Positions 854 through 52,005 of a stretch of DNA of 64,000 nucleotides are shown in pieces. The DNA comes from Artemia franciscana (lineage: Eukaryota; Arthropoda; Branchiopoda; Anostraca; Artemiidae). Made by a program: the position numbers and the translations under genes. Under the pieces are notes generated by a model that did no database searches, had not been told where the DNA came from, and saw only the letters and a program-made list of their open reading frames with translations. Numbering within the stretch: the first letter of the stretch is position 1; each line of letters starts with the position of its first letter. The stretch is taken from assembly GCF_032884065.1 (NCBI RefSeq), contig NC_088881.1:12365260-12429259 (forward strand), read 5' to 3'.

Positions 854-864
854 AAACAGTAAAC

Positions 865-1620: not shown

Positions 1621-1631
1621 CAAGTGAGTTC

Positions 1632-3590: not shown

Positions 3591-4490
3591 ATCATAATCT
3601 TAGAAACATTGCAGAATGACATTTTAAACCAACTACATGCTTCCCATCTAGGAATGGTCAAAACCAAAGAACGAGCCAGGATGGTAGTGTTCTGGCCAAA
3701 CATTACAAAAGATATTGAGAACATGATTGGCAGCTTCAGTACTTGTTGTTCTATGGCACAAAACCAAGGCAAAGAGAGTATGATGACATCTCAAACCTCA
3801 CACATCCATATGAACATGTTGGAACGGATATCTTCGAATTCATGGGAGTTCAGTATTTAGTCACTACTGACTATTACAGCAGGTTCAAAGAAGTCGATAA
3901 GCTAACAACTAGCACATCACAGCAAGTGATGACCAAACTTAAAGCCCGCTTCAAAAGACACGGAATCCCGAAAACACTGACGTCAGACAACGGGACTCAG
4001 TTCTCGTCAAAGGAATTAAGAGATTCCGTAGACACACGGAGCATGGCTCACAAAACTTAAAGCCCAAACTATCCACAGTCAAATGGATTTATCGAAAAAA
4101 CGGTACAGACGGCAAAAAGGATCATGTCCAAAGCTGCTGGAGTACCGTAATACACCAGTCGATGGGCTAGCCTCACCAGCACAGTTGCTGATGAGCCGAC
4201 AACTCAGATCCGTCTTACCCGTTCTTCCCAGACACTTAAATTCCAAGGTCATCCCACCCTCATCTTTCCAACAAGCCAGAGAAAGACAACAGAAACTACA
4301 AACGAAGTCGTATAATAGACACTCAAAGGACCTAAAACCACTGCTCAAGGATCAGACTGTGTGGGTGAAGCTCGACCATAATGCTAGGTGGCAGAAAGCA
4401 CTGATACTGGAAAAATACGAATATGCGCCACGATCCTACATTCTTCAAACAGAGAATGGAAAGTTCTACAGACGGAACAGGTGACAGATC
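3591..4490 (+). pseudogene. Integrase of the Ty3 element
   Basis: After a TGA at 3588-3590 the HHCC zinc-binding region is visible (LHASHLGMVKTKERA, then FSTCC). The frame shifts near 3743 to the core: HVGTDIFEF (first catalytic Asp), TSDNGTQFSS (second Asp) and, after a stop near 4059 and a further shift, PQSNGFIEKTVQ (catalytic Glu). The C-terminal part has LLEYRNTPVDGLASPAQLLMS followed by VWVKLDHNARWQKA. It would insert the cDNA into the genome. Only this copy contains the core; the inverted copy stops inside the zinc region at 6368. Confidence 0.85.
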
Positions 4491-6367: not shown

Positions 6368-6461
6368 CCATCCTGGCTCGTTCTTTGGTTTTGACCATTC
6401 CTAGATGGGAAGCATGTAGTTGGTTTAAAATGTCATTCTGCAATGTTTCTAAGATTATGAT

Positions 6462-8164
6462 TCAGTCGCCCTTCAGAATCACGCCATCCATGTATGTTAG
6501 TTCATCTCTGTGATTCCAAAACTTGAGTATTGCAGTGTTGCATTCATGGCAATGGTCGGGCCATCCCTCAGCGATGGTCTTGACCAGTACTTGTAGGTTT
6601 TGGTCAATCCTTGTTTGCTCTATGATTTGTTTGATCTTGTTGTAGCGAATTGGGACAGATCTGAGAAAGCTGAGTACTGCAAATTCGGAGTCATGCTGTG
6701 CGTCTGGATCTGTTTCGGGCAAGTGTAATCTGGAAAGGGCATCTGCAACCAGAATCTCGGAGCCTGGGTGATATATGACTTGTATGTCATAGTTCTGAAC
6801 TGCTATCATGATTATCTGAAGTCGTGGCGGAACCTTGGATATGAGCTTCTTAAGTATTGACTAAAGAGGCTTGTGGTTGGTGGTTATAATGGTTGTTCTA
6901 CCGTATGTGTATTGGCGGAAGTATTTGCAAGCGTATGTTATGGCTAGCATGTCTTTCTCAATTTGCGAATACCATTTTTCTGCTCCGCTGAGGGACCGGG
7001 ATCCAAAGGCAACTGTTTTGTTGTCGACGACTAGTTGGGCCCCTAGCCCATGTTGAGAGGCGTCCACTATGACTTCTGCATTTCTGCTCTTATGGTCAAA
7101 GTATGAGAGGTTTTTGCAGATTGAGGCTTTGATTTGCTTCCTCGCATTCTCATGCTGGGTTGTCCAGTCGTAAGTCTTGGATTTAGACAGTTCAAGGAGA
7201 GGGTGGTTTAGAGTGGAGAGGTTTGGGATGCATCTTCCTAAATAATTGTACATGCCTAGGAGCACCTGTAGCTGTTCGTGGGATTCTGGTGCTGGTATGT
7301 TCGCAATTGCCTTTGTCTTCTCTGGATCTGCTTTGATCCCTTCAGTGGTCAGCAAGTGCCGGAAGTATGGAATGCTTACTACATTAAAAATACATTTATT
7401 TCGGTTGAACCTTACTCCCTTTTCTCTGGCTCGCTGTAATACTAGCCACAACTTAGCATCATGATCTTCTGTATTTGCTGCTGTTCCAGCAATGTCATCT
7501 AGAGTCCAATGTCGAGTCCTTCAAAGACTTCCTCCATCTTTCGTCGGAACTCGTCCTGTGCTGATTTGACTCCAGATGGGTATCGCTTCCAGTGATATCT
7601 GCCAAATGTAGTGCTAAAGGTGGTTGGGAGGGATGACTCCTCATCTAGTTCCATGGACCAGTATCCTTGTCTTGCGTCCAATTTAAAAAATGTATTAGAT
7701 CCTGAACATTTTGCTGCTACATCATCAAGCGATGGTATTGGGTGGTAAGGACGCTGCACCCATTTGTCTAGATCAACAGGATCTAAACAAATCCTAAGAG
7801 ATCCATTTGGTTTTTGGACGACTACGATTGAGTTTACCCATTCAGTTGGTGTACTTGTCTTCTCAATGATGCCCATGACTTCAAGGCGATCAAGTTTTTC
7901 TTTGAGTTTTTCTTGTAGGGCGAATGGAACTCTTTTTGGTGGTTGTACTGTCGGTACAGCTCCTTCTTTCAAGTGGATTTTACACTTCCCCAGGAGTTTT
8001 CCTACATCTTCAAAAACATCTCCATATTCCTCCAGTATTCTGGCCGTTTTGGGTTTCATTGTGGGTGCAGGTTCGCTCTGTACATTCAGAATGCTAAGTC
8101 TTTCTGCTAAGGATTGGCTTGCAATCAGTGTTGACCACATGAAACTGGTGAACCTGTTTCTCAC
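6462..8164 (-). pseudogene. RT and RNase H of the inverted Ty3 copy
   Basis: Mirror of 1888-3590. RT occupies 7499-8164, the DD box is broken at the same place near 7495, RNase H lies within 6861-7451, and the tether ends with VADALSRL (about 6722-6749). Residue differences from the plus copy are few: INV for INI, KEKLDR for KEKPDR, TEWVNS for TELVNS, and DASQHG for DTSQHG. TEWVN and DASQHG look ancestral for Ty3 RT and RNase H, so the plus-strand copy carries the derived changes at those sites. Confidence 0.88.
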
Positions 8165-8420
8165 CTTCCTTGTAGCAGATGCATAGCTCTACAAACCCCA
8201 AAACCTGTAATCTTTCTCCGGAGTAGCTTGTTAGAATGTCTTTTGTTGGTTGCAAACAAGGTTTAGGTACCATGCTATTATAGTCGCTGACCGGAAGAAC
8301 ATTTGCTTCAGCTCCTGTGTCTATTTTGAAGACTAAGTCTAGTTTCTGGTCAACAATTCTTATTACAGCATCTGGCCCATCTGCATGTTTCACTAGCATG
8401 CTGTTGACAGTGTCAATCAT
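8094..8420 (-). pseudogene. Protease domain of the inverted Ty3 copy
   Basis: Mirror of 1632-1958 with the retropepsin DTG motif (IDTGAEANVLP) and the same terminal frame break. No residue difference from the plus-strand copy is seen. Confidence 0.85.
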
Positions 8421-8431
8421 GAACTCACTTG

Positions 8432-9187
8432 CACTTGTTCCTGCTTCTTATTGGCTTATTTCATTCACACCTTTGCTTTTACATACTTCGGCGAAGTGAT
8501 TCAGTTTGTTACATTTTGAACATGTTTTGCCCCTGGCTGGGCAGTTATGATTCTAGGTATAAGGTGAACCACAAAAATAGCATTCCTTGTAGTTGTACTG
8601 TTTCTTCAGGGCATCTATCTCTTTTTTCATCACGGGCACTGAAGTCTTATTAGCAGCTGTCATTTGCGCTTCGGTTTCCTGTATATATTCGATGGCACGG
8701 CAAATCTCTATTGCTCTGGCAAGGGTTAATGTCCCTCCTTCACTTAGCAATTTCTCTCTAATCCTGTCACTCTTAACTCCAAAGACAAGACGATCTCTTA
8801 TCAGGTAATCTCTGCTGGTACCAAAGTCACAGTCATTAGCAATTAACTTGAGGTCGGTCACATATTATTCGATGTTTTCATTACCTTGGTCTCACTTGTG
8901 GAAAGTAAATCTTTTCACTATGGGGTTTGATATGGGTTCAACATGGGCTCCGAATTTATTAAGGTACGTTTGAACCCTGTTTGTCTCGGTATCTGTTAGA
9001 GTCCATGTGCTGAAAATGTCTCTTCCTTTATCATCAACCCATATCAATAGATACGAACACTGTACAGCCTGGGATTTGCCTTCCAGTGGTCCAAAGAACA
9101 TTAATTCACAGTGTTGTCTGAACCTTTTCCAGGCCGATTTTGGCTCATCGATGACCAGTCGAAGGACAGATATGGTGTGCTGTCCAT
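8432..9187 (-). pseudogene. gag of the inverted Ty3 copy
   Basis: Mirror of 865-1620. It has the same capsid-like helices and two CCHC knuckles, with the same in-frame stops (8553-8555 TAG, 8892-8894 TGA). The shared lesions show decay preceded duplication. Confidence 0.85.
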
Positions 9188-9212
9188 GTTTACTGTTTTA
9201 CTTCTGACACCA

Positions 9213-9362
9213 TGCAATGTCTTCAGTTTAGTTTAATGGTTTAATGGAAAGCCAAGCAAGCACCTACAACAACAAAAACATATATAAGCAATCAAATAAT
9301 TATAACCACGGGCATGCACGTTAACAAGTAGAGTTTCAAGCACGGCAAGTCAATATTTTGCA
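9213..9362 (-). repeat. LTR of the inverted Ty3 copy
   Basis: Mirror of the 5' LTR at 690-839, followed on the minus strand by the TGGTGTCAGAAGTA primer-binding site at 9199-9212. Confidence 0.75.
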
Positions 9363-10680
9363 TCAACGAAATTCTTGCAAGTCCCTGATACAGATTGCTG
9401 GTCTATAAATTTTCATCGTCCTAGTATATCCAGAATCACCGAACTCGCCAAAGTACTGGAAATCCCCCCAACTCCCCCAAAGAGATCGGATCTGGTCCAG
9501 TTATGTCAATCAAGCATCTTAAACCTGTGCTTATTCTTCCCATTAAGTTTCATACCAATCCCTCCACTCTTAACGTTTTCCAAGATTTCCGATTTCCAAG
9601 ATTTTTGTTTCCCCCTCCAACACCCTAGGTCCCCGGATCCGATTCGAATTGAAAATGGAGCATCTGAGACACAATACCTGTCTACATACCATTTTTCATC
9701 AAGATCCGATCACCCATTCGGAAGATAAAGATACCTCAATTTTCCAATTTTCAATGTTTTGCGGTTTCCCCCTCGGATTCCCCCCAATGTCACCGGATCT
9801 GGTCGGAATTTCAAAAAAATAAGAGCTCTGGAGCATAAGATCTTTCTAAACATCAAATTTTATTAAGATCTGTTCACCCGTCCGTAAGTTACAAATAGCC
9901 TTTTTCCTATTTCTTCCGAATCTCCCCCCCCCCCAACTCCACCAAAGAGAGCCCATCCTGTATGATTATGTCAATGACGTATCTAGGACTTTTGTTTATT
10001 CTTACCCCCAAGTATCATCACGTATCTAAACATTTTCCAAGATTTCTGGTTTCCTCCTCCAATTCCTCCCAATGTCACCTGATCCGGTCAAGATCTAAAA
10101 TAAGAGTTCTGAAACACAAGGTTCATCTAAATATAAAATTTCATTAGGATCGAATCACCTTTTCGTAAGTTATTAATATCTAATTTTTTCCAATACCTTC
10201 GAATTACCGAATTAACAACCCCCCCTCCAACTCGCCCAAAGAGATTGTATACTGTCTCGTTATGTCAATAACGTATTTAGGACTTGTGCTTATTTTTCCT
10301 TCCAAGTTTCATCCCGATTTCTCCACTCTAAGCGTTTTCCAAGATTTCAGATTTCCCCATCCAATTCCCCCCAATATCGCCAAATCTGGTAGATATTTAA
10401 AATAAGAGCTCTGAGACATAAAATTCTTCTAAATATCGATTTTCATTAAGATGCTATCACCCGTTCGTAAGTTAAAAATAACTCATTTTTCAAATTTTTT
10501 CTTATTAACCGTCCCCCCACTTCCCCCTAGATGGTCAAATCGAGAAAAAGATTCCTGGTAAACCTACCAAACTTCATCGTCCTAACTTATATGAAGAAGC
10601 CCAAAGTAGCAAAACCGGGACAGACAGACAGACCAACAGAATTTCCAATCGCTATATGTTACTTGGTAAATTCCAAGTGA
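9363..10680 (+). repeat. Dispersed minisatellite-like repeat family, fragment 2
   Basis: About 1.3 kb of irregular units of roughly 160-300 bp anchored by ATTAAGATCCGATCACC, CTCTAAGCGTTTTCCAAG and AAGAGCTCTGAGACA. It ends in (CAGA)n (10619-10631) and a hairpin ACTTGG-taaatt-CCAAGT (10661-10678). The same order, including tail and hairpin, recurs at 61665-63000, so this is a defined element end. No protein is encoded; the open frames at 9375-9728 and 9962-10147 are repeat sequence. Confidence 0.85.
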
Positions 10681-15753: not shown

Positions 15754-16804
15754 AACAATAAGACTGAATTATGAATTTTGATGTTATCGTAAACAAAGGC
15801 TGCCTAAGTACAAAAGAGATTGTATTTAAGACCAAATTAATTTTAAGGCTTTCAAGAAAGAAGATGAAGTAGGATTTCCATAACGAGATATAGGCAATAA
15901 AATCAGTAGTTAAAAGACACCAAGTAAACCAAACAAAAAGAAGATTTATTCGACGAGCAAAGGCCGAAAAATTAAATGGGTTCAAGGCCTTGTGAACGGC
16001 TAGAGATAAATAAAATGACTAGAAATTGAATACTATCATTCCAAAGCAATTCATTAAGTTAACTAAGGATTGATATATTAAGAAATAAAAAGAGAACCCT
16101 TGCTTCTGAGAAACTTTGAAGTCAAATTGAAAAACTATAGCCATGATTTTAATAGTTGCAGCGGTACCTGCAACCGTGTAAGGGCCAAACCACTGCACAT
16201 AATAACCCAAAATTAGAAACGTGTTACAAAAAAACTGGTCAGTGAGAAAAAAAAATGTCGTTTCGAGCTAATGTCCAGGAATAGAAAATATTTAATTCTG
16301 TTCAAAAAGTAAAATGTCTTTTCAAAAGTAAATTTATTGGAATTTCAAAAAATAACCTGAGACTCTTAAAAATGACGTCGGGTCGAAACGAAAAATCACA
16401 CTATTTAACTCGTCAAAGCAAAGACTCCATTGAGAAACCTTGCAGTCCCCTGGCTTGAACAACAAGGAAAATCACATTTTCGCATGGGTGGCACTGACGT
16501 ATTTTCTTATTTTTCTTTTCTAGCACTGGAACATCTAACAGACGTGTTTAAAGGCTCATTATTGAAAGCAAATTTCTATACCTGCTTGCATGTGTAATTA
16601 AAAAAAACTTAGTGTTAAGATGAAATACATTTTTTTGACAAATAAACTACATCTTCATTTACAAGCTGATAAATAACGTCAAAAACGTAGGCTACAATCA
16701 AACAGTTTTGGTAACAAACTGTAAGTAAGGAGCGATACGGCTCAACGGTAACCGAAACTCTAAAAAGGACAATTTGATTTAAATCCGCCGCAAATGCACA
16801 ATCT

Positions 16805-16872
16805 ACCACAGGGAGATTTGAACTCGATCCTCGAGATTCTAAAGAGAGTGTCAAATCCGCTCAGCTGGTAGC
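16805..16872 (-). repeat. tRNA-like sequence in array unit 2
   Basis: Same as unit 3 but with a 2-bp loss in one acceptor strand (ACCAGCTGAGCGG instead of ACCACAGCTGAGCGG), which breaks the stem. B box GAGTTCAAATC is intact. Confidence 0.5.
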
Positions 16873-18195
16873 TGAATATTAAACTGAATTATGAATTTTG
16901 ATGTTATCATAAACAAAGGCTGCCTATGTGCAAAAGTGATTGCATTGAAGACCAAATTAATTTTAAGGCTTTCAAGGAAAAAGTTGAGATGGGATTTCCA
17001 TATCGAGATATGGGCAATAAAACAAGTAGATAAAAGACATGAAATAAACAAAAAAAGAAAGCAGATTTATCTGACGAGTTAAAGTGGAAGTAGATACGAG
17101 TTAATAAAACAAGTAGATAAAAGACATGAAATAAACAAAAAAAGAAAGCAGATTTATCTGACGAGTTAAAGTGGAAGAAGTAAATGCGTCCAAGACATTT
17201 TGATGGCTAGATATAAATGAAATGACTAAACATTGAATATTATCATTCCAAAGCAATTCATTAAGTTGACTATAATTTGATATATTAAAAAATAAAAAGA
17301 AAACATTTGCTACTGAGAAACTTTGAAGTCAAATAGAAAAACTATGACCATGATTTTAATAGTAGCAGCGGTAGCTACAACCGTGTAAAGACCGAGCCAC
17401 TCCCCATAATAACCCAAAATTAGAAATGCGTTAGAAAGAGATTAGTAAGAAAAAAAATGTGATTTCTAGCTGATCTCCAGGAATGGTAAATATTATCTAA
17501 ATTTGTCTTAATAGTAAAATGTCTTTTCAAAAATAAAATTATTGGAACTTCACAAAACAACCTAAAACTCCTTAAAAATGACGTCGGGTCGAAACGAAAA
17601 ATCACAAAATAGGACTCGTCAAGCCAAAGACTCCATTCAGAAGCCTTGCCGCCCCCCTGGCTTGGACAACAAGAAAAATCACATTTTCGCATGGCTTGGC
17701 ACTGACGTATTTTCTTTTTTTCTTTTCTAGTGATAGCGAGCCACTGAAACATCACAGAGACGTGTTTAAAGGCTCATTATGAAAGAAAATTTCTAAACCT
17801 GCTTGCTTTTGTAATTAAAAAAGCATAGTGTTAACAGGTTGTTCTTTTGACAAATAAACTGTATCTTCATTTACAAGCTGACAAATGACGTCATAAACGT
17901 AGGCTACAATCAAACAGTTTTTGGTAACAAACTGTAAGTAAGGAGCAACACGGCTCAACGGTAACCGAAACTCTAAAAAGCAGAATTTTGATATCAATAG
18001 GTATATCAAAGAATTGGCTTTTTATGCTGCTCCAAATATATAACATCCATTAAGCTTAGTGTTACCCATAAAAGGCTATGAGCCTGAGAAAATCTGGCTG
18101 ATTTTCGAAAAAAAGGGAAACCCTCTAAAAGTCATAAAATTTTCATGAAAATCACACCATCAGATTCAGCGAATCAAAGAACGAATGCACAATCT

Positions 18196-18262
18196 ACCAC
18201 AGGGAGATTTGAACTCGATCCTCGAGATTCTAAAGAGAGTGTCAAATCCGCTCAGCTGTGGT
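18196..18262 (-). repeat. tRNA-like sequence in array unit 3 (tRNA-derived, SINE-like)
   Basis: On the minus strand, ACCACAG at the 5' end pairs perfectly with CTGTGGT 67 nt away, like a 7-bp acceptor stem. In between lie AGCTGAGCGG, close to a pol III A box, and GTTCAAATC, which fits the B-box pattern GWTCRANNC. The D/anticodon part does not fold into a standard cloverleaf by eye, so I call it tRNA-derived rather than a functional tRNA. It could drive pol III transcription of the unit. Confidence 0.55.
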
Positions 18263-19575
18263 AGCTGAATATTAAACTGAATTATGAATTTTGATGTTAT
18301 CATAAACAAAGGCTGCCTATGTGCAAAAGTGATTGCATTGAAGACCAAATTAATTTTAAGGCTTTCAAGGAAAAAGATGAGATGGGATTTCCATATCGAG
18401 ATATGGGCAATAAAACAAGTAGATAAAAGACATGAAATAAACAAAAAAAGAAAGCAGATTTATCTGACGAGTTAAAGTGGAAGTAGATACGAGTTAATAA
18501 AACAAGTAGATAAAAGACATGAAATAAACAAAAAAAGAAAGCAGATTTATCTGACGAGTTAAAGTGGAAGAAGTTAATGGGTCCAAGACATTTTGATGGC
18601 TAGATATAAATGAAATGACTAAAATTGAATATTATCATTCCAAAGCAATTCATTAAGTTGACTATAATTTGATATATTAAAAAATAAAAAGAAAACATTT
18701 GCTTCTGAGAAACTTTGAAGTCAAATAGAAAAACTATGACCATGATTTTAATAGTTGCAGCGGTAGCTACAACCGTGTAAAGACCGAGCCACTCCCCATA
18801 ATAACCCAAAATTAGAAATGCGTTAGAAAGAGATTAGTAAGAAAAAAAATGTGATTTCTAGCTGATCTCCAGGAATGGTAAATATTATCTAAATTTGTCT
18901 TAATAGTAAAATGTCTTTTCAAAAATAAAATTATTCGAACTTCACAAAACAACCTAAAACTCCTTAAAAATGACGTCGGGTCGAAACGAAAAATCACAAA
19001 ATAGGACTCGTCAAGCCAAAGACTCCATTCAGAAGCCTTGCCGCCCCCCTGGCTTGGACAACAAGAAAAATCACATTTTCGCATGGCTTGGCACTGACGT
19101 ATTTTCTTTTTTTCTTTTCTAGTGATAGCGAGCCACTGAAACATCACAGAGACGTGTTTAAAGGCTCATTATGAAAGAAAATTTCTAAACCTGTTTGCTT
19201 TTGTAATTAAAAAAGCATAGTGTTAACATGTTGTTCTTTTGACAAATAAACTGTATCTTCATTTACAAGCTGACAAATGACATCATAAACGTAGGCTACA
19301 ATCAAACAGTTTTTGGTAACAAACTGTAAGTAAGGAGCAACACGGCTCAACGGTAACCGAAACTCTAAAAAGCAGAATTTTGATATCAATAGGTATATCA
19401 AAGAATTGGCTTTTTATGCTGCTCCAAATATATAACATCCATTAAGCTTAGTGTTACCCATAAAAGGCTATGAGCCTGAGAAAATCTGGCTGATTTTCGA
19501 AAAAAAGGGAAACCCTCTAAAAGTCATAAAATTTTCATGAAAATCACACCATCAGATTCAGCAAATCAAAGAACC

Positions 19576-21268: not shown

Positions 21269-21294
21269 TTAAGATAAGATAAGATTTATTCATC
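21269..21294 (-). terminator. Polyadenylation signal and 5-mer tail of the LINE
   Basis: Minus strand GATGAATAAATCTTATC followed by TTATCTTA: an AATAAA signal directly followed by about three TCTTA units. Such short tails mark the 3' terminus of CR1-like LINEs and the point where reverse transcription starts. Confidence 0.65.
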
Positions 21295-21614
21295 ACGAAA
21301 CACACATACAATATTACATTTTACTATTTCCCCAAAGGCTCTTTGGCCTGTAAAAAAGGGGAAAATGAACGAGCCACTTACTCAGAGAGGAAAAAAATAA
21401 TCACTTACTCACAGAGAGAAGAGCAAAAAGGAGAAGAGAGGAAAGTATAAATAAAATGAAAAACTATAGAAAACGAAACTAAATAGACTAATATATTGAA
21501 CAGACTATATTAATTATGTAGATCTGTAGATAAAATAGACTCCAATGAAATAATCAGGAAATATATATGCATACATACACGCATATACACATATAAAAAG
21601 AGATAAAATAATTT

Positions 21615-24600
21615 CTAAGAAGCCAATGAATTTTTAATAATTTTTTTGAACAAACCGAATGAGTGGCACCTTCGAGCTGATTCGGGCAACTTATTCCATA
21701 CAATATAACTCGCAATTAAAGGATTAAAGTCTGACCTTACACAAGGAGTAAAAGGAACTTGAATATGATTTTTGGTATTGCGAAGATTATAATTATTCTG
21801 ATCAGAGGTGAAAGATGACTGAACACTTAGGGGACGGGGGAGGTTACCATGAAGCTGAGAAAAAGTAAAACATGCACACGAAAGAATATACAGTGACTCG
21901 AGATCAAGTAATGGGATAACTCTTGAACGGTTAGTTTCCTTAATGAGGTTTCTAGCTTTATTATAAACCTTAGAAAGTGGTTTTAACAGTGAAGGAAAGG
22001 TTGACATCCATACTATTGGACAGTAGGAAACGTAAGATCGGATCAAGGAGTGAAAAAGGATTTCCAAAATTGATCCAGGGAAAATATGTTTGAGTTTCCT
22101 TAAAATACCGAGACTCCTGCATATCTTCATTTTAATCAAATCAATGTGACGCTTGAAAGACAAGTTTTCATCAACAAGAATGCCCAAAAAACGAACATAT
22201 CGATCTTTAGATCTGTGAATTATCCCATTTGGCTGATGAATTTCTGATAACTTGGGATAAATCTGAGAAACATGCGAAAATATCAAAAAATTGGATTTTG
22301 AATAATTTAGGGTAAGAAAATTAGCATCAAGCCATGAAATTACTCTCTCAAACAAGTATTCCAAGTTTAATCGAAGCTCGGATTCACAGTTCCCCGAAGT
22401 GCCGAGTGTGCTATCATCAGCAAAACAAACAAGGACATCAGAAGATGGTGAACTATAGCTGGCACTATGGGCAAGGGAAGGTTTAGGATGACAGAGTCTA
22501 CAGCAATGAATAGGTTTCTGCTTTTTTACTGCGTAAAAAAGATCATTTATATAAATCAAAAATAGCACTGGCCCTAAAACTGATCCCTGAGGGACGCCAA
22601 AATTCACTTGTCATTGACAGAAATTAAATTGTGGATTGACAGAAATTAACCTATCATTCAAATAAGATTGAAACCAAGAAAATACATTACCCCTAATGCC
22701 AAAATGAGACATCTTCGATAGAAGAATTTCATGGGTTAAGAAATCGAATGCCTTGCGAATATCCAGGAATATAGCAGCCGGAATTAATCCCAAATCCAAT
22801 TCAGAATGTATAAAATTCAAAAGGGTCATACAGGCATGCTCAGTGGAGTGCTTCATTCGGAAACCAAATTGAAAATCATGAAGAAACTCTTTAGATTTTA
22901 GAAATTTAAGCAGACGAGAAAGCATAGCCTTTTCGAAGATTTTACTAAATACTGATAAAATTGAAATTGGTCGATAATTTGCTGGATCATTTCTTGGTCC
23001 ACCTTTATACAGAACAATAATCCGAGCACGCTTGAGAGGATCTGGAAAAACCCCATATTTAAATGAAAGATTAACAAGTTTTGTAAGAGGCACAACTATT
23101 GAAGAAAGAATAGATTTAACTACCTTAGTAGGAATAGAATCTGGCCCAGATGAAGATGAGTCTTTCAAGCCATTAACAATTTTAGTAATTTCAATTTCTG
23201 TTACTGGCTCTAGAAACATAGACTTAACACAAGACGGCCCGAGGTAAGATCTAAAGTCCGACTTAGACCGAGATAAAGTAGCTGTGGAAGCGATATTATT
23301 ACCAATACTAGCGAAAAATGAAGTAAATGCTTCTTGGACATTAAGCTCACCCTCTACAGTCTCGTCACCAATGACCAGACTCATAGGTAAAGAGCTATAT
23401 TGAGAACCAGGTTTAAGCACAGAATTTATTACCTTCCAAGTTTTACGAATATCCTTATTACACGCAGCAAAATTATTTAGATAATAGAGAGATTTGGCTT
23501 TCCTACACAAGGAATTATATATATTCCGGTAGATCTTGAATTGACAAAGACGAATAGCACTCGTTGAAAGTGTAGCGCATTTATAATACCTCCAGAGATT
23601 ATTTTTCCTTCTCCAGCTTTTGAGAAGTCCGGATGTCATCCATGGGTTTAGAGAAATAATCCTTTTAGACCTGCGATTAGAAGGTGGTACTTTACAAATG
23701 TTAAGAATAGCCTCTTTTATGGTTCCATAAAACGACTCAAATAAACAAGAAAAATCCTTGTTATTATCAAATAAGCTCCACGAATTTTTCGCTAATTTAG
23801 AACCAAGAAGAGATAACTCATTCTCACCAAACCTAATAGAATAGGAATCAAACACTTGAGCCCGGTTATTCCTTCCCCGATTAAAACTGAACCGAGAATA
23901 TATGGGAAAATGATCGGAGATATCAGTAACTAAAATTGAGTTTTTCTTCAAGCAAAGCGTAGAGAAGATATTGTCAATCAAAGAAGCTGTAACATTAGTT
24001 ACTCGTGTGGGGAAGGATGTAGTTGGTAGAGTTCCTGCGGCAAGCATGGTTGAAAGAAAATCAACTGAAGCCGAAGAATTTGAATCCATCAAATTTATAT
24101 TAAAGTCACCCATTATGATTAACTGACACGGACGTTTCAATATTAAGTCAAGTATTTCCTCAAGATTCCGAAGAAACAACGAAACGGCGCCACTAGGAGA
24201 ACGATAAATATTGCCTATGATTAGATCAATACCATTAACTCTAATTTCTATAAATTGTGACTCAAAGATACCTTCAAAATTCCTTGATAAGTCATCCCGT
24301 AAGCAATAATGCAAATTACTAGATATATACATGGCAAGACCTCCTTTAGCCATCTTGCAGCGGTTTATATGTTCCATTTTGTAGCCATGGATATCCAATA
24401 GCATTTCATTGCCAGAATACAAAAATGTCTCGCACAAACCAACAACATCAGGCTGTCCATCCAAAACTATTTGTCTTAAATTATCTATTGACGAGGAAAG
24501 ACCCTGAATGTTAAGCTGAAGTGCAGTCAGAGAATAATTTCCTTTGGTAACCTCCTCTCCCCCTAATTCCAAAACATATTTACTATTACAAACAGGGTTT

Positions 24601-24644
24601 ATATTAGTCAGGTTTTGATTAACCTGACCCACAGAATTATTCAC
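21615..24644 (-). pseudogene. LINE ORF2: APE endonuclease and reverse transcriptase, one in-frame TGA
   Basis: One register runs from 24644 to 21615 (1009 codons plus stop) broken only by TGA at 22611-22613, just before FGVPQGSVLGP. Endonuclease (about residues 20-260): LNIQGLSSS, CETFLYSG (catalytic Glu), GNIYRSPSG, IMGDFNINLMD, DNIFS and SDHFPIYSRF. RT: SSSGPDSIPTKVV, ANYRPISILSVFSKIFEK, FGFRMKHSTEHA, FLDIRKAFD (first Asp), FGVPQGSVLGP and VCFADDSTLG (FADD box). The C-terminus NYNLRNTKNH...WNKLPESARR resembles CR1-group RTs. The listed start is GTG; the frame stays open upstream to about 24765 without an ATG, so the true start is unclear. It nicks target DNA and copies LINE RNA. Confidence 0.85.
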
Positions 24645-24952
24645 AATACTAATTAGATCAAAAGGATTATTTTCAAGCTCGCAAAGGCGTCTTTCACGAC
24701 TTAAAATATTGACAAAAGCAGGTTTTACTTGGAGTCCATTTAAATCACCAGATGAACAAAAAAGAAATCTTTACCTAAATCTATTACGAAAGAAAAACCT
24801 GTCAAAGGATTATAAACACATAAATAATTAATAGCACAGAAGGTACTATCGGGATGAACCAAGAGCAGGAAAAAAAAAATGAAACGAAATAAAAAGAAAC
24901 TGTAAAAAAAAATGACTTAGGAAAGGATACGCATCAAGAAAATATTAACCAG

Positions 24953-26071
24953 TCACATACTAATACATTCATGCAAATAATTTATTTTGCGTATACGAGT
25001 TTCACCAGGAACTTTGGCTAGAATTTGACCATGATCAGACCAAACACTTCTTGGGCCAAAGGTGCTACGAGCCGCGTTTAATAGATCCCGACGCTTTTTA
25101 GTTAGGTTTTCTAAAACAAATACACCTGACTTTGCCAACTTACTTTTTGCTGCAAACACTTTACGAGCAGTATCTAAGCTTGAAAATGTTACTAGAACTG
25201 GGGCGATTTTCACATTCTCAGTTTGATTAGCAGGCCTGCGGAATCGATTAACCTTTAAGAGGTCCATTTCTTTAAAATCTTGCAAGCCCATTATTTGTGT
25301 TATCACTCCATTAAGATTTTCTCTCAGTTCCACATTGGGGTTTGGTTTCACACCGTAGAAAATTAGGCTATCAAGTAAGGCATCCTGCTCTAGTTGGTCA
25401 AACTTGTCTTCTAAGTTAGAGATTTTATTTTCAAGCAAGTTCACGGCATTATAAAGTTTTCGAAGGGTTGTTTCAATTTTTTCAAATTTGGCATTATATT
25501 CAAGGGAAATCGAATTATAAACTTCGTTCACAATATCTTCACTTATAATTTCCGAAGCTCGGCGATCTTTCATTGTATTTGATACGACACGAGAAATATC
25601 ATTCATTAGGTTAGACTTAGTGCTCATTAGTTCCTCTTGAGTTTCATTTATTATTTCTTTTAAATTTGATGCTGCTGCAGAAGTTGGAGTTAATGGTGCT
25701 AGGCTGGATTTTCCTTTAGTTTTAGCGGGTAGTGATAAGTAGGACTTACTTAGAGTCTTGAAAATATCAGGGGATAAGCGCTGCTCTTCAAAAGCCTTAT
25801 TTACATCTTTATCTGTCCTCGCACAAGCTTCTTTAAAATGGTCATTCCAATTGCGGATGTGTGCTTCAGCTATATTATGCTCCGAGTGGGTGCCATAGCA
25901 AAAGACTAGATATCTAGCTTGATTTTTCTGGTCTTTGGTGGTTTTAATAACTACTGATGGCCATAAGGGATATCCTTGAAATGAAGCTAGGACAAGATCA
26001 AACGGTTTATATTTTGCCATTTTACAATCTTCAGTCACAATGGGGGGGGGGGTGAACACTACAGGTAACAA
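24953..26071 (-). CDS. LINE ORF1 protein with N-terminal PWWP-like domain, coiled coil and RNA-binding C-terminus
   Basis: A 372-codon open frame. Residues about 20-85 match PWWP chromatin-reader domains: KPFDLVLASFQGYPLWPS holds the G-Y-P-x-W-P core, and YLVFCYGTHSEHNIAEAHI gives the aromatic strand and GTH turn typical of the HDGF/LEDGF group. PWWP domains bind H3K36-methylated nucleosomes. Residues about 195-235 (ENKISNLEDKFDQLEQDAL) are a heptad coiled coil. About 236-372 resembles the RRM-plus-CTD of L1/CR1-type ORF1 proteins (LIFYGVKPN, FSSLDTARKVFAAKSKL, ENLTKKRRDLLNAAR). The ATG at 26018-26020 (MAKYKPFD) is as good a start as 26071. It would coat LINE RNA and may tether it to active chromatin; that last point is inference. 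Confidence 0.8.
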   Translation of the reverse strand: MLPVVFTPPPIVTEDCKMAKYKPFDLVLASFQGYPLWPSVVIKTTKDQKNQARYLVFCYGTHSEHNIAEAHIRNWNDHFKEACARTDKDVNKAFEEQRLSPDIFKTLSKSYLSLPAKTKGKSSLAPLTPTSAAASNLKEIINETQEELMSTKSNLMNDISRVVSNTMKDRRASEIISEDIVNEVYNSISLEYNAKFEKIETTLRKLYNAVNLLENKISNLEDKFDQLEQDALLDSLIFYGVKPNPNVELRENLNGVITQIMGLQDFKEMDLLKVNRFRRPANQTENVKIAPVLVTFSSLDTARKVFAAKSKLAKSGVFVLENLTKKRRDLLNAARSTFGPRSVWSDHGQILAKVPGETRIRKINYLHECISM

Positions 26072-26302
26072 ATTTCAAGAACAGAATGATCCAATTTGCC
26101 GCCCCAAAAGTACTCACGTTTGTAATATGTGCTTGGTTATTCACGCAAGTTCATCAAATTCTTAGCAAGGACTATATCCAATTCAATTGAAAACTGGTTT
26201 AGCTCTTCACTCTTTGAACTCTCATAGTCGACTGAACTCTCATAGTCGACTGACTATGTGCCTGCGAAGTGCCTGGGGTGGCACTTCGCGCCACCCCAAC
26301 AC
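26072..26302. other. Flank of the LINE with an 18-bp tandem and GC hairpin
   Basis: Between LINE and Helitron: an exact 18-bp tandem (ACTCTCATAGTCGACTGA unit, about 26218-26253) and an 8-bp perfect hairpin GGGGTGGC-acttcgc-GCCACCCC (26275-26297). The hairpin resembles a Helitron terminator on either strand. No gene. Confidence 0.6.
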
Positions 26303-38061: not shown

Positions 38062-39933
38062 ATGGATAGATTCCTGATCAGGAATAACAAGAAGCCGAAT
38101 GATGGTACCCAAAACTCTGAACCTGCTTCTAAGAAGAAGAAATATGAATAATCATCGGTCAAAGTGCGTCGATATTTGTCAGAATACCTAGGGCTCGGAT
38201 TTAGTGCGACAAAGTCTGATCCAGTGAATGCACAGTGCGTTCTTTGTGGTCAAGTCTTGGCCAACAGTTCCATGAAACCTGCACATATGAACCGGCATCT
38301 CAGTACTGTGCACCCTTCTCATGTCGGTAAGCCCATAGAGTTTTTCAAGCGTAAACAAGAAGCATTCGCTAGTAACTGTTTGGAAATTGCAAAAGTGGCA
38401 TCAGTTTCTTCAAAGGCTCTCCGGGCTTCGTATGCTGTTTCATATTTAGTTGCGAAACAGAAAAAACCGCACACCATCGCCGAATGTCTGATATTACCAG
38501 CACTAGTGAAAGTCAGTGAAATAATGTTTGACACGAAAACTGCTACTGCCCTTCAGTCTTTACCTGTGTCGAACAATACCATTTCAAGAAGGATAGAAGA
38601 CATTGCAAGCGATATTGTCATGCAGGTTATTGAGCAAATAAAGTTGACGAAGATGTTTGCGTTACAGCTTGACGAAAGAACGGATTTGTCAGGTGAAGCC
38701 CAGGTGATCGTCTTTGTTCGATATCAAGATTGTTCTGACATAAGAGAAAATATTCTGTTTTGTCAAAACCTACAGTCAAGAACAACAGGAGAAGAACTAT
38801 TCAAGGTGATTGACAAATTCTTCGCAGAAGGGGGCATCTTGTGGGACTGGTGTCTATCAGTTTGCAGTGATGGAGCTGCCACCCTAACAGGGAAGAATAA
38901 TGGGCTCATGGCCTGGATAAGGAAGAAAAATCCAAAGGTGAAGTGGTTGCACTGCATCATTCACAGGCAAGCTCTTGCATCGAAAAGGATGAACGCACAT
39001 CTGCACGAGACCCTCAACGAGGCTGTAAAAGTGATCAACTTCATCAAAGCCCGACCACTGAACTCAAGAATGTTCAAGTTGCTGTGCCAAGAGATGGGTT
39101 CAGAACATCAACATTTACTTCTGCACACAGAAGTTCGCTGGTTGTCTCGTGGGAAGATTTTAAACAGACTTTTCGAGCTTCGACAAGAAGTTCATATGTT
39201 TCTTCTGGAGCAAAAATCTGCATTCAGTTCACTTTTTGAAAACCAGGACTGGGTCTGCAGGCTGGCCTATCTTGCGGATATTTTCGACAAACTGAATGAC
39301 TTGAATCTGTCAATGCAAGGTTTCCGGACGGACGAACTCTCCCTGAATTCGAAGATGTGTGCTTTCATCAAGAAATTGGAGTTCTGGCTTAAAAAGGTTC
39401 AAAGAAACAGCGTTAGTGTCTTCCCGACCCTTGACAAGTTTGCGGACGATAGTGAAATTGATAACCTCAACACAATCTGTGATTGTATTCGGGAGCATCT
39501 GACAAAGTTGCGAGATGAACTTGTGTCATATTTCCCATCGATTATGAACCAAGATAGAACGCAGGATTGGATCCAAAATCCATTTGTTGAAGACGTGACC
39601 TCAAGCTCCGGTCTTAGTGACAAGCTTACAGAGAATCTGATCGAACTTGCCAGTGATCGCGCCTTAGAACTGAAATTCCAAAATGTAACTGTTTCCCAGT
39701 TTTGGCTGGAGGTGAAAGGAGAATACAAGGAACTAAGTGAAATCGCCATGTCTGCTTTGTTACCATTCGGATCCACTTACCTTTGTGAAGTGTCATTTTC
39801 GGCAATGTCATTGATCAAAACCAAACACAGAAACAGACTGAGTATACAAAATGACCTTATAATTGCCGTTAGTGACATCGAGCCAAGATTTGATAATATT
39901 TTAGCAAAAAAGCAGCCTCAAGTTTCTCATTGA
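38062..39933 (+). pseudogene. hAT transposase (BED finger, RNase H-like core), TAA at codon 30
   Basis: From ATG 38062 one register runs 623 codons to 39933, interrupted only by TAA at 38149-38151; after it the frame is open (589 codons from 38164). Near the N-terminus a BED-type finger (CVLCG...HMNRHLSTVH). Core: LQLDERTDLSGEAQVIVFVRY (first Asp), CSDGAATLTGKNNGL (second Asp), WLHCIIHRQALASK (CxxH), EVRWLSRGKIL. C-terminal dimerisation region: ALLPFGSTYLCEVSFSAMSL and KTKHRNRL. It resembles the group from which ZBED5/GTF2IRD2-like host genes derive. It cuts element ends and makes 8-bp target duplications. The early stop may be the only lesion. Confidence 0.85.
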
Positions 39934-41738: not shown

Positions 41739-43083
41739 GGAATCTTTCACAATGTTCATCATATAGACCAATAACACTTTGTTCTGTTATTAGTAAATTA
41801 TTTGAAAAGAATTTTACTTCCATATTTAACAACAAAGTGTGATATGGGGGATCAACAGTTGGGTTTTCGAAGTGGTGTAGGGGCTCAAAATGCACACGCA
41901 ATAATTCTAGAAATACTGGAACACCATCATAGGATTAAAAAACAATTATTTGTGTGTGGAGTTGATATTTCAAAAGCGTTTGATAGTATGTTGCAAAGCC
42001 ATGCTTTTAGTCACTGTTGCGTAGTGGGGTTAACCCATTTATAGGACAGTGTTTGGCGGACTGGTATGGTAATTCATCTTTGAGAATCTTTTCGGGAGGT
42101 CAACTTTAAGACCGAATTTATTTACGTCGTGGAGTTAAACAAGGGTCAGTTCTTAGCCACTTTATATTTAATAACGCAATTAGATTAGCCACACGGTTCA
42201 TACCCCCATATGTGATTAAGGGTATCGACATTAGCCACTTATCGTAGGCTGATGATATTTTGTTGTTCTCGGATAATTTAATAGCAATGCAGAATGCAAT
42301 TAATACATTACACTCACATCTACGAAAGATAGGACTAGAGATTGAACCATCTAAAACAGAATTCCTAGTGGCGAATAGTAAAAGTGATATCCAGCCTCAT
42401 TCAATTAGGGTGGGATCGCTTAATATTATTAAGAAAAATTCCATTAATTACCTTGAGTTGCCTTTTGGTCCGTCAATTAAAGCTACGCAGGAGTTGGTGT
42501 TATCATCTGTGTTGGGAAAACTTAGGAAAACAAATGGCCTGCTAGTCAGGGTGAAAGGTCGTTTTGATAAAGAAACACTTGCTAGGCTATAATTTATCAT
42601 TCAATGTTTGCACCTCATGTATTTTTCAGTGTTCCATTTATGAAGTTTTTGAGTAAAATTAATGAAAAGCGTATCCGCGTTTACTTTTTCTGGTTTTGTA
42701 AGTATTTTCTTGGAATTCCACTATGGTTCAAAAATAGTTATATTATACGAAATTTCGGAATATTTGACATTACCGTTAAAATGGAACAACAATACGACCG
42801 ATTTCTTAGACGGTCTAGAGAAAATAGAATAAATTTTCCCGTAATTGTCTCATTTAATGGAATAACAGTTTTGTCGATATTTCTATAATAAAATAGATAT
42901 TTGTGCGCTATGTTTATGGGTGCTATTTTATAAGTTATGCTTATGAGTTTTGTTATTATTATGATTTACTGATTTTCATTAGAAGTGTAATTTTCAAATT
43001 TTTCAGTTTTCTTTCCATACTCCTCTGTGTACACCTTTTGTATGTAAAGAGGGCATACATAAATTATTATTATTATTATTATT
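41739..43083 (+). mobile_element. Decayed APE-type LINE with (TTA)n tail, copy 2 (5' part lost in gap)
   Basis: Same RT motifs and 3' tail (about 43065-43083) as copy 1. It retains 22 bp (TTCCATTTATGAAGTTTTTGAG region, about 42632-42653) missing from copy 1. The endonuclease is not in the sequenced part. Confidence 0.85.
41755..42592 (+). pseudogene. Reverse transcriptase of the decayed LINE, copy 2
   Basis: SSYRPITLCSVISKLFEK reads at about 41757-41810, followed by QQLGFRSGVGAQNAHA, VCGVDISKAFDSML and ADDILLFSDN with the same TAG before the DD box as copy 1. It differs by one base near 42007 (CATGCTTTTAG against CATGCTTTTTAG), which lengthens the local frame. Confidence 0.82.
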
Positions 43084-44009
43084 AATGGGCCAGTTGAATT
43101 ACTGTTAAGGCTTGACGTTCCCAATATCCCTAGAGACATAGTTACTGCACCATTCAACTATGAACAAAATGGCTGTCTCAAAAGTTTGACTAGATCTGTT
43201 TGGAAAATTAATGCAATTGGGAAAAGGGTGATACAACTTATAATTTCCAATCAAATTAGATCCGTTAACTGTTTCAATGATATTCCTAGCTATGATTGAA
43301 CTGCGCAGCCTATGATATTACTTATATACCCCTTGAAAACCACCATGCATATAGTATTTTTCGTTTAATTGAAACCACCCCTTACAATTCTTTAAAAGTT
43401 TTACCTTAATACCCTCAGCGTTATTAGTAACTGTAACTGTAGTAGTAGTTTTAATAGTATACACAGAGTATCTTCTGGCTAGTTGGAAATTCGCCACAAA
43501 TTCGTATGAAAGGTCCAACTTGACAATGTATGCTGTTCATGATATATTGCTTTGTCACCCTTTTGACAATCTATGTGCTCATAGCTTGTTTTGATTTTCA
43601 GCCCTCCGCCTCAACATTCTTTAAAAACTTTACATCAGTAACCTCACTTTGCGAAGTAGTAATTGTTGTAGTAAACTAGTATCAGTATGTGCAGAGCTCC
43701 TTTTGTTTTCATCAATATCCCCATCAAAACACGCTGAAAGTTTTAACTTAATACCATCAACCATTCCTGCTGATACAATATTTGTTGATACAATATTTAT
43801 ACAATGCTGATACAATGCTGTTGAGCATTGTTGATACAATATCATGACAAGATTTTTCGATGGGATTGATGCTGACACGGTTAAATATTCAAAAACCAAG
43901 TTTTGTTATAATTATTTTATATTAATAATTATTCAGGTTTGCTGTCAAAAAGCAATTCAAATTGCTGGGAAAAGTACTTAAACAACTTACGCAGACACAA
44001 AGAGCATGA
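43084..44009. repeat. Non-coding repeat block, copy 2
   Basis: Same as 14749-15672: two related ATTCTTTAAAA sub-blocks and the TGATACAAT cluster (about 43771-43844). Confidence 0.6.
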
Positions 44010-44017
44010 ATCGGTCA

Positions 44018-44090
44018 CTACCACAGAGAGATTTGAACTCAATCCTCGATATTCTAAGGAGTGTGTCAAATCCGCTCAGCTGATGTAGCT
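44018..44090 (-). repeat. tRNA-like sequence, array copy 2 unit 1
   Basis: Counterpart of 15681-15753; divergent, acceptor ends unpaired. Confidence 0.5.
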
Positions 44091-45141
44091 AACAATAAGA
44101 CTGAATTATGAATTTTGATGTTATCGTAAACAAAGGCTGCCTAAGTACAAAAGAGATTGTATTTAAGACCAAATTAATTTTAAGGCTTTCAAGAAAGAAG
44201 ATGAAGTAGGATTTCCATAACGAGATATAGGCAATAAAATCAGTAGTTAAAAGACACCAAGTAAACCAAACAAAAAGAAGATTTATTCGACGAGCAAAGG
44301 CCGAAAAATTAAATGGGTTCAAGGCCTTGTGAACGGCTAGAGATAAATAAAATGACTAGAAATTGAATACTATCATTCCAAAGCAATTCATTAAGTTAAC
44401 TAAGGATTGATATATTAAGAAATAAAAAGAGAACCCTTGCTTCTGAGAAACTTTGAAGTCAAATTGAAAAACTATAGCCATGATTTTAATAGTTGCAGCG
44501 GTACCTGCAACCGTGTAAGGGCCAAACCACTGCACATAATAACCCAAAATTAGAAACGTGTTACAAAAAAACTGGTCAGTGAGAAAAAAAAATGTCGTTT
44601 CGAGCTAATGTCCAGGAATAGAAAATATTTAATTCTGTTCAAAAAGTAAAATGTCTTTTCAAAAGTAAATTTATTGGAATTTCAAAAAATAACCTGAGAC
44701 TCTTAAAAATGACGTCGGGTCGAAACGAAAAATCACAGTATTTAACTCGTCAAAGCAAAGACTCCATTGAGAAACCTTGCAGTCCCCTGGCTTGAACAAC
44801 AAGGAAAATCACATTTTCGCATGGGTGGCACTGACGTATTTTCTTATTTTTCTTTTCTAGCACTGGAACATCTAACAGACGTGTTTAAAGGCTCATTATT
44901 GAAAGCAAATTTCTATACCTGCTTGCATGTGTAATTAAAAACAACTTAGTGTTAAGATGAAATACATTTTTTTGACAAATAAACTACATCTTCATTTACA
45001 AGCTGATAAATAACGTCAAAAACGTAGGCTACAATCAAACAGTTTTGGTAACAAACTGTAAGTAAGGAGCGATACGGCTCAACGGTAACCGAAACTCTAA
45101 AAAGGACAATTTGATTTAAATCCGCCGCAAATGCACAATCT

Positions 45142-45209
45142 ACCACAGGGAGATTTGAACTCGATCCTCGAGATTCTAAAGAGAGTGTCAAATCCGCTCA
45201 GCTGGTAGC
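45142..45209 (-). repeat. tRNA-like sequence, array copy 2 unit 2
   Basis: Counterpart of 16805-16872 with the same 2-bp loss in the acceptor strand. Confidence 0.5.
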
Positions 45210-46533
45210 TGAATATTAAACTGAATTATGAATTTTGATGTTATCATAAACAAAGGCTGCCTATGTGCAAAAGTGATTGCATTGAAGACCAAATTAATTT
45301 TAAGGCTTTCAAGGAAAAAGTTGAGATGGGATTTCCATATCGAGATATGGGCAATAAAACAAGTAGATAAAAGACATGAAATAAACAAAAAAAGAAAGCA
45401 GATTTATCTGACGAGTTAAAGTGGAAGTAGATACGAGTTAATAAAACAAGTAGATAAAAGACATGAAATAAACAAAAAAAGAAAGCAGATTTATCTGACG
45501 AGTTAAAGTGGAAGAAGTAAATGCGTCCAAGACATTTTGATGGCTAGATATAAATGAAATGACTAAACATTGAATATTATCATTCCAAAGCAATTCATTA
45601 AGTTGACTATAATTTGATATATTAAAAAATAAAAAGAAAACATTTGCTACTGAGAAACTTTGAAGTCAAATAGAAAAACTATGACCATGATTTTAATAGT
45701 AGCAGCGGTAGCTACAACCGTGTAAAGACCGAGCCACTCCCCATAATAACCCAAAATTAGAAATGCGTTAGAAAGAGATTAGTAAGAAAAAAAAATGTGA
45801 TTTCTAGCTGATCTCCAGGAATGGTAAATATTATCTAAATTTGTCTTAATAGTAAAATGTCTTTTCAAAAATAAAATTATTGGAACTTCACAAAACAACC
45901 TAAAACTCCTTAAAAATGACGTCGGGTCGAAACGAAAAATCACAAAATAGGACTCGTCAAGCCAAAGACTCCATTCAGAAGCCTTGCCGCCCCCCTGGCT
46001 TGGACAACAAGAAAAATCACATTTTCGCATGGCTTGGCACTGACGTATTTTCTTTTTTTCTTTTCTAGTGATAGCGAGCCACTGAAACATCACAGAGACG
46101 TGTTTAAAGGCTCATTATGAAAGAAAATTTCTAAACCTGCTTGCTTTTGTAATTAAAAAAGCATAGTGTTAACAGGTTGTTCTTTTGACAAATAAACTGT
46201 ATCTTCATTTACAAGCTGACAAATGACGTCATAAACGTAGGCTACAATCAAACAGTTTTTGGTAACAAACTGTAAGTAAGGAGCAACACGGCTCAACGGT
46301 AACCGAAACTCTAAAAAGCAGAATTTTGATATCAATAGGTATATCAAAGAATTGGCTTTTTATGCTGCTCCAAATATATAACATCCATTAAGCTTAGTGT
46401 TACCCATAAAAGGCTATGAGCCTGAGAAAATCTGGCTGATTTTCGAAAAAAAGGGAAACCCTCTAAAAGTCATAAAATTTTCATGAAAATCACACCATCA
46501 GATTCAGCGAATCAAAGAACGAATGCACAATCT

Positions 46534-46600
46534 ACCACAGGGAGATTTGAACTCGATCCTCGAGATTCTAAAGAGAGTGTCAAATCCGCTCAGCTGTGGT
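46534..46600 (-). repeat. tRNA-like sequence, array copy 2 unit 3
   Basis: Counterpart of 18196-18262. The 7-bp ACCACAG/CTGTGGT stem, AGCTGAGCGG and GTTCAAATC are all preserved. Confidence 0.55.
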
Positions 46601-47913
46601 AGCTGAATATTAAACTGAATTATGAATTTTGATGTTATCATAAACAAAGGCTGCCTATGTGCAAAAGTGATTGCATTGAAGACCAAATTAATTTTAAGGC
46701 TTTCAAGGAAAAAGATGAGATGGGATTTCCATATCGAGATATGGGCAATAAAACAAGTAGATAAAAGACATGAAATAAACAAAAAAAGAAAGCAGATTTA
46801 TCTGACGAGTTAAAGTGGAAGTAGATACGAGTTAATAAAACAAGTAGATAAAAGACATGAAATAAACAAAAAAAGAAAGCAGATTTATCTGACGAGTTAA
46901 AGTGGAAGAAGTTAATGGGTCCAAGACATTTTGATGGCTAGATATAAATGAAATGACTAAAATTGAATATTATCATTCCAAAGCAATTCATTAAGTTGAC
47001 TATAATTTGATATATTAAAAAATAAAAAGAAAACATTTGCTTCTGAGAAACTTTGAAGTCAAATAGAAAAACTATGACCATGATTTTAATAGTTGCAGCG
47101 GTAGCTACAACCGTGTAAAGACCGAGCCACTCCCCATAATAACCCAAAATTAGAAATGCGTTAGAAAGAGATTAGTAAGGAAAAAAATGTGATTTCTAGC
47201 TGATCTCCAGGAATGGTAAATATTATCTAAATTTGTCTTAATAGTAAAATGTCTTTTCAAAAATAAAATTATTCGAACTTCACAAAACAACCTAAAACTC
47301 CTTAAAAATGACGTCGGGTCGAAACGAAAAATCACATAATAGGACTCGTCAAACCAAAGACTCCATTCAGAAGCCTTGCCGCCCCCCTGGCTTGGACAAC
47401 AAGAAAAATCACATTTTCGCATGGCTTGGCACTGACGTATTTTCTTTTTTTCTTTTCTAGTGATAGCGAGCCACTGAAACATCACAGAGACGTGTTTAAA
47501 GGCTCATTATGAAAGAAAATTTCTAAACCTGTTTGCTTTTGTAATTAAAAAAGCATAGTGTTAACATGTTGTTCTTTTGACAAATAAACTGTATCTTCAT
47601 TTACAAGCTGACAAATGACATCATAAACGTAGGCTACAATCAAACAGTTTTTGGTAACAAACTGTAAGTAAGGAGCAACACGGCTCAACGGTAACCGAAA
47701 CTCTAAAAAGCAGAATTTTGATATCAATAGGTATATCAAAGAATTGGCTTTTTATGCTGCTCCAAATATATAACATCCATTAAGCTTAGTGTTACCCATA
47801 AAAGGCTATGAGCCTGAGAAAATCTGGCTGATTTTCGAAAAAAAGGGAAACCCTCTAAAAGTCATAAAATTTTCATGAAAATCACACCATCAGATTCAGC
47901 GAATCAAAGAACC

Positions 47914-48477
47914 ATGCTTTAGAGCTCATATCAGCAAAAGTATGGAATTTTGTATTTTTTTGCCAGAAGAAAGATCACGGAAGCTTGTTTTTTTTCCCCA
48001 GGAATGATTGTATTGAACCAATGGTCCATGAACATCAGGAGAGGGCTTAATTGAACGAAAATTGCAAGTTGTGGTGTCCTTTATACTGACCAAAAATTGG
48101 AGGGCAAATAGAACCACTTCTATATCCCCTTTCCCAAAATTTCGGAAGATGTTGATAAAAATTTAGAGATAGCCCTTTCTTTCAGCATAGTTGAAAGGTA
48201 ACAAAGCTATGCCGTTAGAGATAATATAGCCCCCACAGCGTCAGGAGATATGTCTTTAAGATATAAAATTCGTCAGTTGTTTACGTATAGTATTTGTTAT
48301 TGAAGTATAAAGTATGCAGACATTTTCAGGAAGGAGGATGTGCTTGGGGCAGATTTCTATAGGGAGGGAAATTTTCGAGGGTGAGCTTTCCAGGGGCAAT
48401 TTTACACTGGGGAGATTTGACGGAATTTCCATCGGATATTCTTTTCATTTGTTTCACTTCTCTTTACCAATTCAATT
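47914..48477. repeat. Terminal part of segment A, copy 2
   Basis: Same as 19576-20140; ends at TTCAATTC where the 6555-bp deletion begins. Confidence 0.7.
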
Positions 48478-50693: not shown

Positions 50694-50772
50694 GTCACTG
50701 CCTTTGTTGACGTATTTACATATGTATTTGATTGCCTTTACGGAGTTACAGTATTCAACGTTTATGTGTGCA

Positions 50773-51995: not shown

Positions 51996-52005
51996 TTTGA
52001 AACAG

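Follow-up and report, generated by a model that had tools for sequence, protein, structure and literature searches.

PWWP domains at the start of LINE ORF1 proteins in several retrotransposon families of Artemia franciscana

PWWP domains are the modules by which cells dock on histone-marked, transcribed genes. At least one kind of retroelement is guided by such a reader: LEDGF/p75 tethers lentiviral integrase. Among LINEs, the closest described system is the type IIC ORF1 of Metcalfe and Casane (2014), in which a PHD finger is joined to a transposase-22 domain (the L1-type RRM-CTD); it was reported in the subgroups L2_6 and CR1_5 (PMC4120745). The choice of chromatin sites by most APE-type LINEs is largely open, and the consulted part of that study suggested that these PHD fingers read chromatin, its authors knowing in 2014 of no functional study of the PHD fingers of LINE ORF1 (PMC4120745). 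Reticulate evolution of ORF1 was also described there for the Jockey superfamily (PMC4120745). In the present study, we analyzed a stretch of 64,000 nucleotides of Artemia franciscana DNA (hereafter, the window) together with the genome assembly and found PWWP, a second and well-characterized reader fold, at the same place in ORF1, in several families and with a clear pocket to mutate.

The window contains a full LINE of about 4.97 kb belonging to family A (21270..26236, minus strand). Its ends were obtained from an alignment to four sibling copies, which are 97.4-98.9% identical to it over nearly the same span. The open frame at 24953-26071 of the minus strand has the natural ATG of ORF1 at 26020, which gives a protein of 355 aa (24953..26020, minus strand). 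This protein comprises a PWWP domain (residues 1-90; 25751..26020), a coiled-coil region (residues 114-215; 25376..25681), and an RRM and CTD of the LINE-1 ORF1p type (residues 216-355; 24956..25375), all on the minus strand. In the structure model, the coiled-coil region forms two long helices (residues 114-149 and 153-215), and residues 171-355 matched 2yko, 2ykp, and 2ykq. Stop-free copies of the family A ORF1 covering residues 1-354 or 1-355 numbered 22 among 121 genome matches (hand count, window copy included).

ORF2 of the window element (21615..24644, minus strand) encodes an APE-type endonuclease and a reverse transcriptase. A single in-frame stop at 22611-22613 breaks its frame, and the ORF2 of the copy L026 is uninterrupted (1009 aa). 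Profile searches matched Exo_endo_phos and RVT_1 in the ORF2s of L026, L009, and L015, which identifies these elements as APE-type non-LTR retrotransposons; RNase H had no match at E 0.1 in the same three ORF2s. The window element terminates at its 3' end in tandem copies of a short unit, (TTATC)n (21270..21290, minus strand), and families C and D terminate in other units, (CT)n and (TGTCTA)n, respectively. Judged by these 3' ends, the elements may belong to the CR1/L2 lineage. Inspection by eye revealed no ATG for the family A ORF2 between the upstream stop and the conserved start (window 24644-24800), unlike family B, in which ORF2 opens with an ATG. Family A may use an unusual start.

A sequence-only reading of this locus had proposed a PWWP domain at the start of ORF1, followed in the same frame by a coiled coil and by an RNA-binding C-terminus resembling those of L1/CR1, and had suggested a profile search and a fold check of the N-terminus. 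Both found PWWP. The window ORF1 scored 32.8 bits against PF00855 (curated cut-off, 25.6 bits), and the structure model and fold search returned a PWWP fold. The remainder of the proposed architecture was borne out by the helices and the 2yko-type match. PF00855 was matched at E 0.01 or better in 14/14 ORF1s of an alignment set (A1) that had been picked as PWWP-bearing; P0017 scored 15.2 bits, which is under the cut-off. The nearest PWWPs by profile and fold belong to the HDGF family (HDGF, HRP2, HRP3, PSIP1/LEDGF, and fly JASPer/Shuguo). The top PDB match in a single-sequence search was the fly chain 6kco, entered as LD23804p / Shuguo PWWP, which we take to be the JASPer gene product. By model and fold matches, this ORF1 has the coiled coil, RRM, and CTD of LINE ORF1 type II. 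It does not belong to type IIC because no PHD finger was matched among the 14 A1 members at E 0.01.

We searched the assembly (1.27 Gb, 6468 contigs) for PWWP, and at least 150 matches were scored among 733 candidates, host genes among them. The match was stop-free within an open frame of 340-450 aa in 52 of 150 rows (hand count; the host gene L005, 1167 aa, was excluded). L025 appeared by eye to be a host PHD/PWWP-like gene. The copies fetched represent families A, B, C, D, E, F, and G, together with L008, L082, L086, and L087; L088 and L089 lie near G. ORF2 is located downstream of ORF1 in families A-E, and the start of an endonuclease follows L008; for the others, the fetched sequence covered ORF1 or its start only. 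Over the longest stretches, copies were 96-99% identical in families A, C, D, and E and 89-98% identical in B. The identities of 96-99% suggest that several families moved recently.

The database proteins P0003, P0004, P0005, and P0007 share the architecture of the window ORF1, and P0003 and P0005 both carry PF00855. Among the matches listed, P0005 was 52% identical to this genome when aligned over its full length, and no shorter piece exceeded 54%. For P0003, the listed matches in open copies were about 44% identical; those in copies that were decayed or incomplete reached 63-74%, with one stretch of 39 residues at 77%. Judging from their sequences, P0003 and P0005 probably come from other species. 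In the search for sibling copies suggested by the earlier reading, the sibling families were found to retain the PWWP N-terminus, so that this architecture is conserved and spread over several families, with ORF2 coupled to it in A-E. The occurrence of sibling copies and families across many scaffolds ruled out a chance fusion. The same observation, together with the four database proteins of like architecture, leaves a chance fusion, an assembly artefact, or a host gene with practically no probability.

Two arrangements of copies were noted. On C17, ORF1 is matched four times at a spacing of 6598-6599 bases (33243627-33264418), each time within a 394-aa open frame; this resembles a tandem array, and PWWP was read in one of these ORF1s (L086). 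In family B, a second ORF2-start piece is located upstream of ORF1 (L017:7970-8338 and L019:1371-1589), as if by head-to-tail joining.

The relationships of families differed between the two ORFs. By ORF2, family B groups with A (RT identity of 52-64% vs 27-42% for A or B against C, D, and E). By ORF1, it groups with E (61-65% per region vs 23-39% between A and B). Forcing the A+B grouping on ORF1 was rejected (p-AU 4.5e-5), as was forcing B+E on ORF2 (p-AU 3e-77); these p-values are optimistic because the groups were named after the identities were known, but the identity gap is plain. Since PWWP and RRM-CTD share the affinity between B and E, we infer that the whole ORF1 moved. These sequence comparisons indicate that ORF1, including its PWWP, has been exchanged as a unit between ORF2 lineages.

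We compared the pocket in 17 PWWPs, one per lineage; L088, L089, and G are closely related, and these sequences therefore represent fewer than 17 independent lines. LINE positions were equated with those of PSIP1 through an HDGF alignment, in what we take to be the PSIP1 residue numbering. The pocket positions were F14 (M15 in PSIP1; 16/17), Y17 (Y18; 16/17), W20 (W21; 17/17), C41 (F44; 16/17), and H45 (H48; 15/17), and they ranked among the most conserved of the PWWP domain. The position of PSIP1 E49, adjoining H45, is D or E in 14/17. The W of L011 and the VLYYG of L021 did not recur in any further E or A copy that was read. The broken copy L008 has W, plus I at the F14 position, and the decayed copy L004, which was left out of the comparison, has F.

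The PSIP1 cage consists of M15, Y18, W21, and F44 (PMC3663649). According to the consulted part of that study, W21A and F44A abolished all binding, including nucleosome binding for F44A, and the authors suspected misfolding; specificity was lost in M15A, Y18A, H48A, and E49A (PMC3663649). The LINE PWWPs keep three of these four cage positions and have Cys at the fourth. The near-fixed F, Y, W, and H together with this Cys argue for a pocket retained with one fixed change. A decayed pocket was ruled out because this Cys hardly varies and the residues around it are conserved. The sequence-only reading had drawn a parallel to LEDGF, which holds for the HDGF type of the domain and not for the F44-equivalent cage residue.

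The pocket may read a target other than H3K36 methylation, such as a different methyl-lysine or a methylated protein other than a histone, and might serve in nuclear retention or in the recruitment of a host factor to the RNP. The fourth-wall Cys, which is fixed rather than random while F14, Y17, W20, and H45 are kept, would be consistent with a changed specificity. However, no such partner is known, and the acidic residue at the E49 position is shared with PSIP1, an H3K36 reader. We regard this explanation as improbable.

The PWWP is basic in 16/17 lineages (pI 8.7-9.6), the exception being family F (pI 6.1), and a basic domain fits DNA contact. It may accordingly be an extra nucleic-acid-binding module that acts independently of histone methylation, forming a bridge to the target DNA or to the RNA of the element while the RNP assembles or while target-primed reverse transcription takes place. 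We consider this unlikely, although it carries appreciable weight. A role in DNA binding alone predicts a variable pocket and fixed DNA contacts; however, the pocket is nearly fixed, and the equivalents of PSIP1 K14 and K16, which are presumably DNA-contacting residues, vary (the commonest residue accounts for 0.53 and 0.35 of sequences, respectively). In its favor, besides the pI, a Cys in place of F44 would be expected to lower the affinity for methyl-lysine, the PDB entry 6kco is a PWWP with ssDNA, and JASPer binds nucleic acids according to the consulted part of PMC6877644.

Among 10 ORF1 lineages, mean identity was 43% for PWWP, 34% for the linker and coiled coil, and 45% for RRM-CTD. Selection within families was assessed by pN/pS in copies chosen as open frames (20 of A, 6 of C, 7 of D, 6 of E, and 2 of G); the G rows L049 and L050 (frame length) and L053 were excluded, as was B (one open copy). 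The pN/pS of PWWP was 0.24 in A, 0.75 in C, 0.58 in D, 0.65 in E, and 0.14 in G. Relative to the other two ORF1 regions, it was the highest in D and E, in the middle in C, and the lowest in A and G. In the whole ORF1 of the 20 open family A copies, N:S was 9:12 for variants in at least two copies vs 71:25 for singletons (Fisher p 0.009). The lower ratio among shared variants suggests that replication lineages purge amino-acid changes across ORF1 as a whole. For PWWP alone in family A, no selection was detected (3:4 shared vs 12:4 singleton, p 0.18), the numbers being small. As regards the test of purifying selection on the cage residues that the earlier reading had suggested, the pocket was conserved between lineages, and no signal for PWWP alone was detected within families.

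PWWP-less copies were found in family F. The query P0008 (269 aa, PWWP-less) had 147 genome matches, including 25 full-length rows at 98-99% identity, 22 of which were stop-free. Six further rows start at residue 4 in 362-aa frames, and five of these are stop-free in the match; PWWP was present at the start in all four that were read (L077-L080). The eight short copies that were read (L069-L076) all run from a shared MSS start directly into the post-PWWP linker, in frame, and in the five that were aligned, the 5' UTR is shared with the long form as far as the start. Divergence, measured over 780 ORF1 bases, was 3.9% among five PWWP-bearing copies (F-plus), 1.9% between the PWWP-less copies (F-minus) and the nearest F-plus copy, and 0.13% among eight F-minus copies, the last value being biased low because these loci were taken from the top-scoring end of the 25 full-length rows. 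Family F nests inside the PWWP lineages (97/97 support, unrooted tree). P0008 as an ancestral PWWP-less state was rejected on the basis of this nesting, in an unrooted tree, and of the deletion seen in the genome copies.

The sequences indicate that PWWP was recently lost in family F and that the PWWP-less form was then amplified. The F-minus lineage may or may not borrow the proteins of its PWWP-bearing relatives in trans. Copies lacking the N-terminus had been named beforehand as a sign of chance fusion. Such copies exist; however, their deletion is recent and derived inside a PWWP-bearing family, which argues for dispensability and not for chance fusion. Since one lineage lost PWWP and still multiplied, the domain appears to be helpful but not essential. 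This loss with later amplification and the absence of a within-family signal for PWWP alone would also suit a passenger that is inherited by descent and brings the element little benefit. We consider a passenger very improbable because identity and the near-fixed pocket residues persist across far-apart lineages, several families keep open frames, and the loss was seen in one lineage only.

We propose that the PWWP of ORF1p tethers the LINE RNP to nucleosomes, the likeliest address being H3K36-methylated gene bodies, and consider the chances for and against this proposal to be evenly balanced. An ORF1p trimer would coat the LINE RNA and display three PWWP domains. The RNP would then dock on nucleosomes by avidity, through a basic face that contacts DNA and through the pocket for methyl-lysine; transcribed, H3K36-methylated chromatin is the most plausible site, and docking would influence the insertion site, at which ORF2p would nick DNA and prime reverse transcription. 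In the fly, the arthropod PWWP protein JASPer is brought by H3K36me3 to active genes as well as to telomeric retrotransposons, according to the consulted part of PMC6877644. Points against tethering are the Cys in the fourth wall, the loss in family F, the absence of a selection signal for PWWP alone, the pI of 6.1 in family F, and the position of the window copy outside any recognised host gene; the fixed Cys and the family F deletion kept us from rating it higher. More tentatively, and with some doubt, we speculate that an exchangeable, diverse class of LINEs with its own HDGF-type PWWP tethers its RNP to H3K36-methylated chromatin in the manner of a self-encoded LEDGF, and that the loss in family F acted as a natural knock-out, changing where the lineage prefers to insert and enabling its expansion. 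Young PWWP families and a PWWP-deleted sister lineage are present in one genome, and reader-guided insertion may therefore be tested by insertion mapping alone.

No recognised host gene was found around the window copy, and transposon remnants surround the LINE. Host-gene domains were absent from the 16 of 24 window ORFs of at least 120 aa that were scanned, a weak test because short exons are missed. The window contains a large duplication (13426-37755 and 41742-59538, 98.9-99.4% identity), the second arm of which lacks both the LINE and the final part of an ORF for a Helitron helicase. We rejected this gap as an empty insertion site; it is probably a deletion because it also removes the end of the helicase ORF. 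Each arm carries one pair of 1.39-kb direct repeats of about 99% identity (16793-19574 and 45130-47912). A 3.7-kb inverted repeat of 99.8% identity (1-3684 and 6368-10051) contains retrotransposon RT/RNase H fragments, and an open frame of 589 aa (38164-39933, plus strand), which includes a hAT dimerisation domain, is possibly an open hAT transposase.

The earlier suggestion that a LINE of this architecture was undescribed agrees with the literature searched. No PWWP LINE was described by title or abstract start among the matches listed (subscription papers and Repbase were outside the scope), no paper was found that combined PWWP, non-LTR retrotransposon, and ORF1, and none is described in the consulted parts of PMC3978060 and PMC6877644. 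Within the literature searched, PWWP in place of PHD appears to be new, and a reader domain at the N-terminus of LINE ORF1 was already known.

Type IIC resembles the present elements in the N-terminal position of a histone-reader-class domain on an L1-type ORF1, in reticulate ORF1 exchange, and in the general-targeting role proposed in the consulted part of PMC4120745. It differs in having PHD, another fold, and the main text of that paper does not mention PWWP. The coiled coil, RRM, and CTD of human LINE-1 ORF1p (2yko) are alike by fold at 12% identity. To our knowledge, the N-terminus of the human protein has no folded reader domain. The HDGF-family PWWPs are the nearest relatives of the domain itself; however, the LINE version differs by its Cys at F44 and by its fusion to the RNA-binding protein of a LINE. 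In LEDGF/p75 tethering, a host protein acts in trans, whereas the domain described here is encoded by the element, and the likeness between the two would hold only if the proposed tethering is correct.
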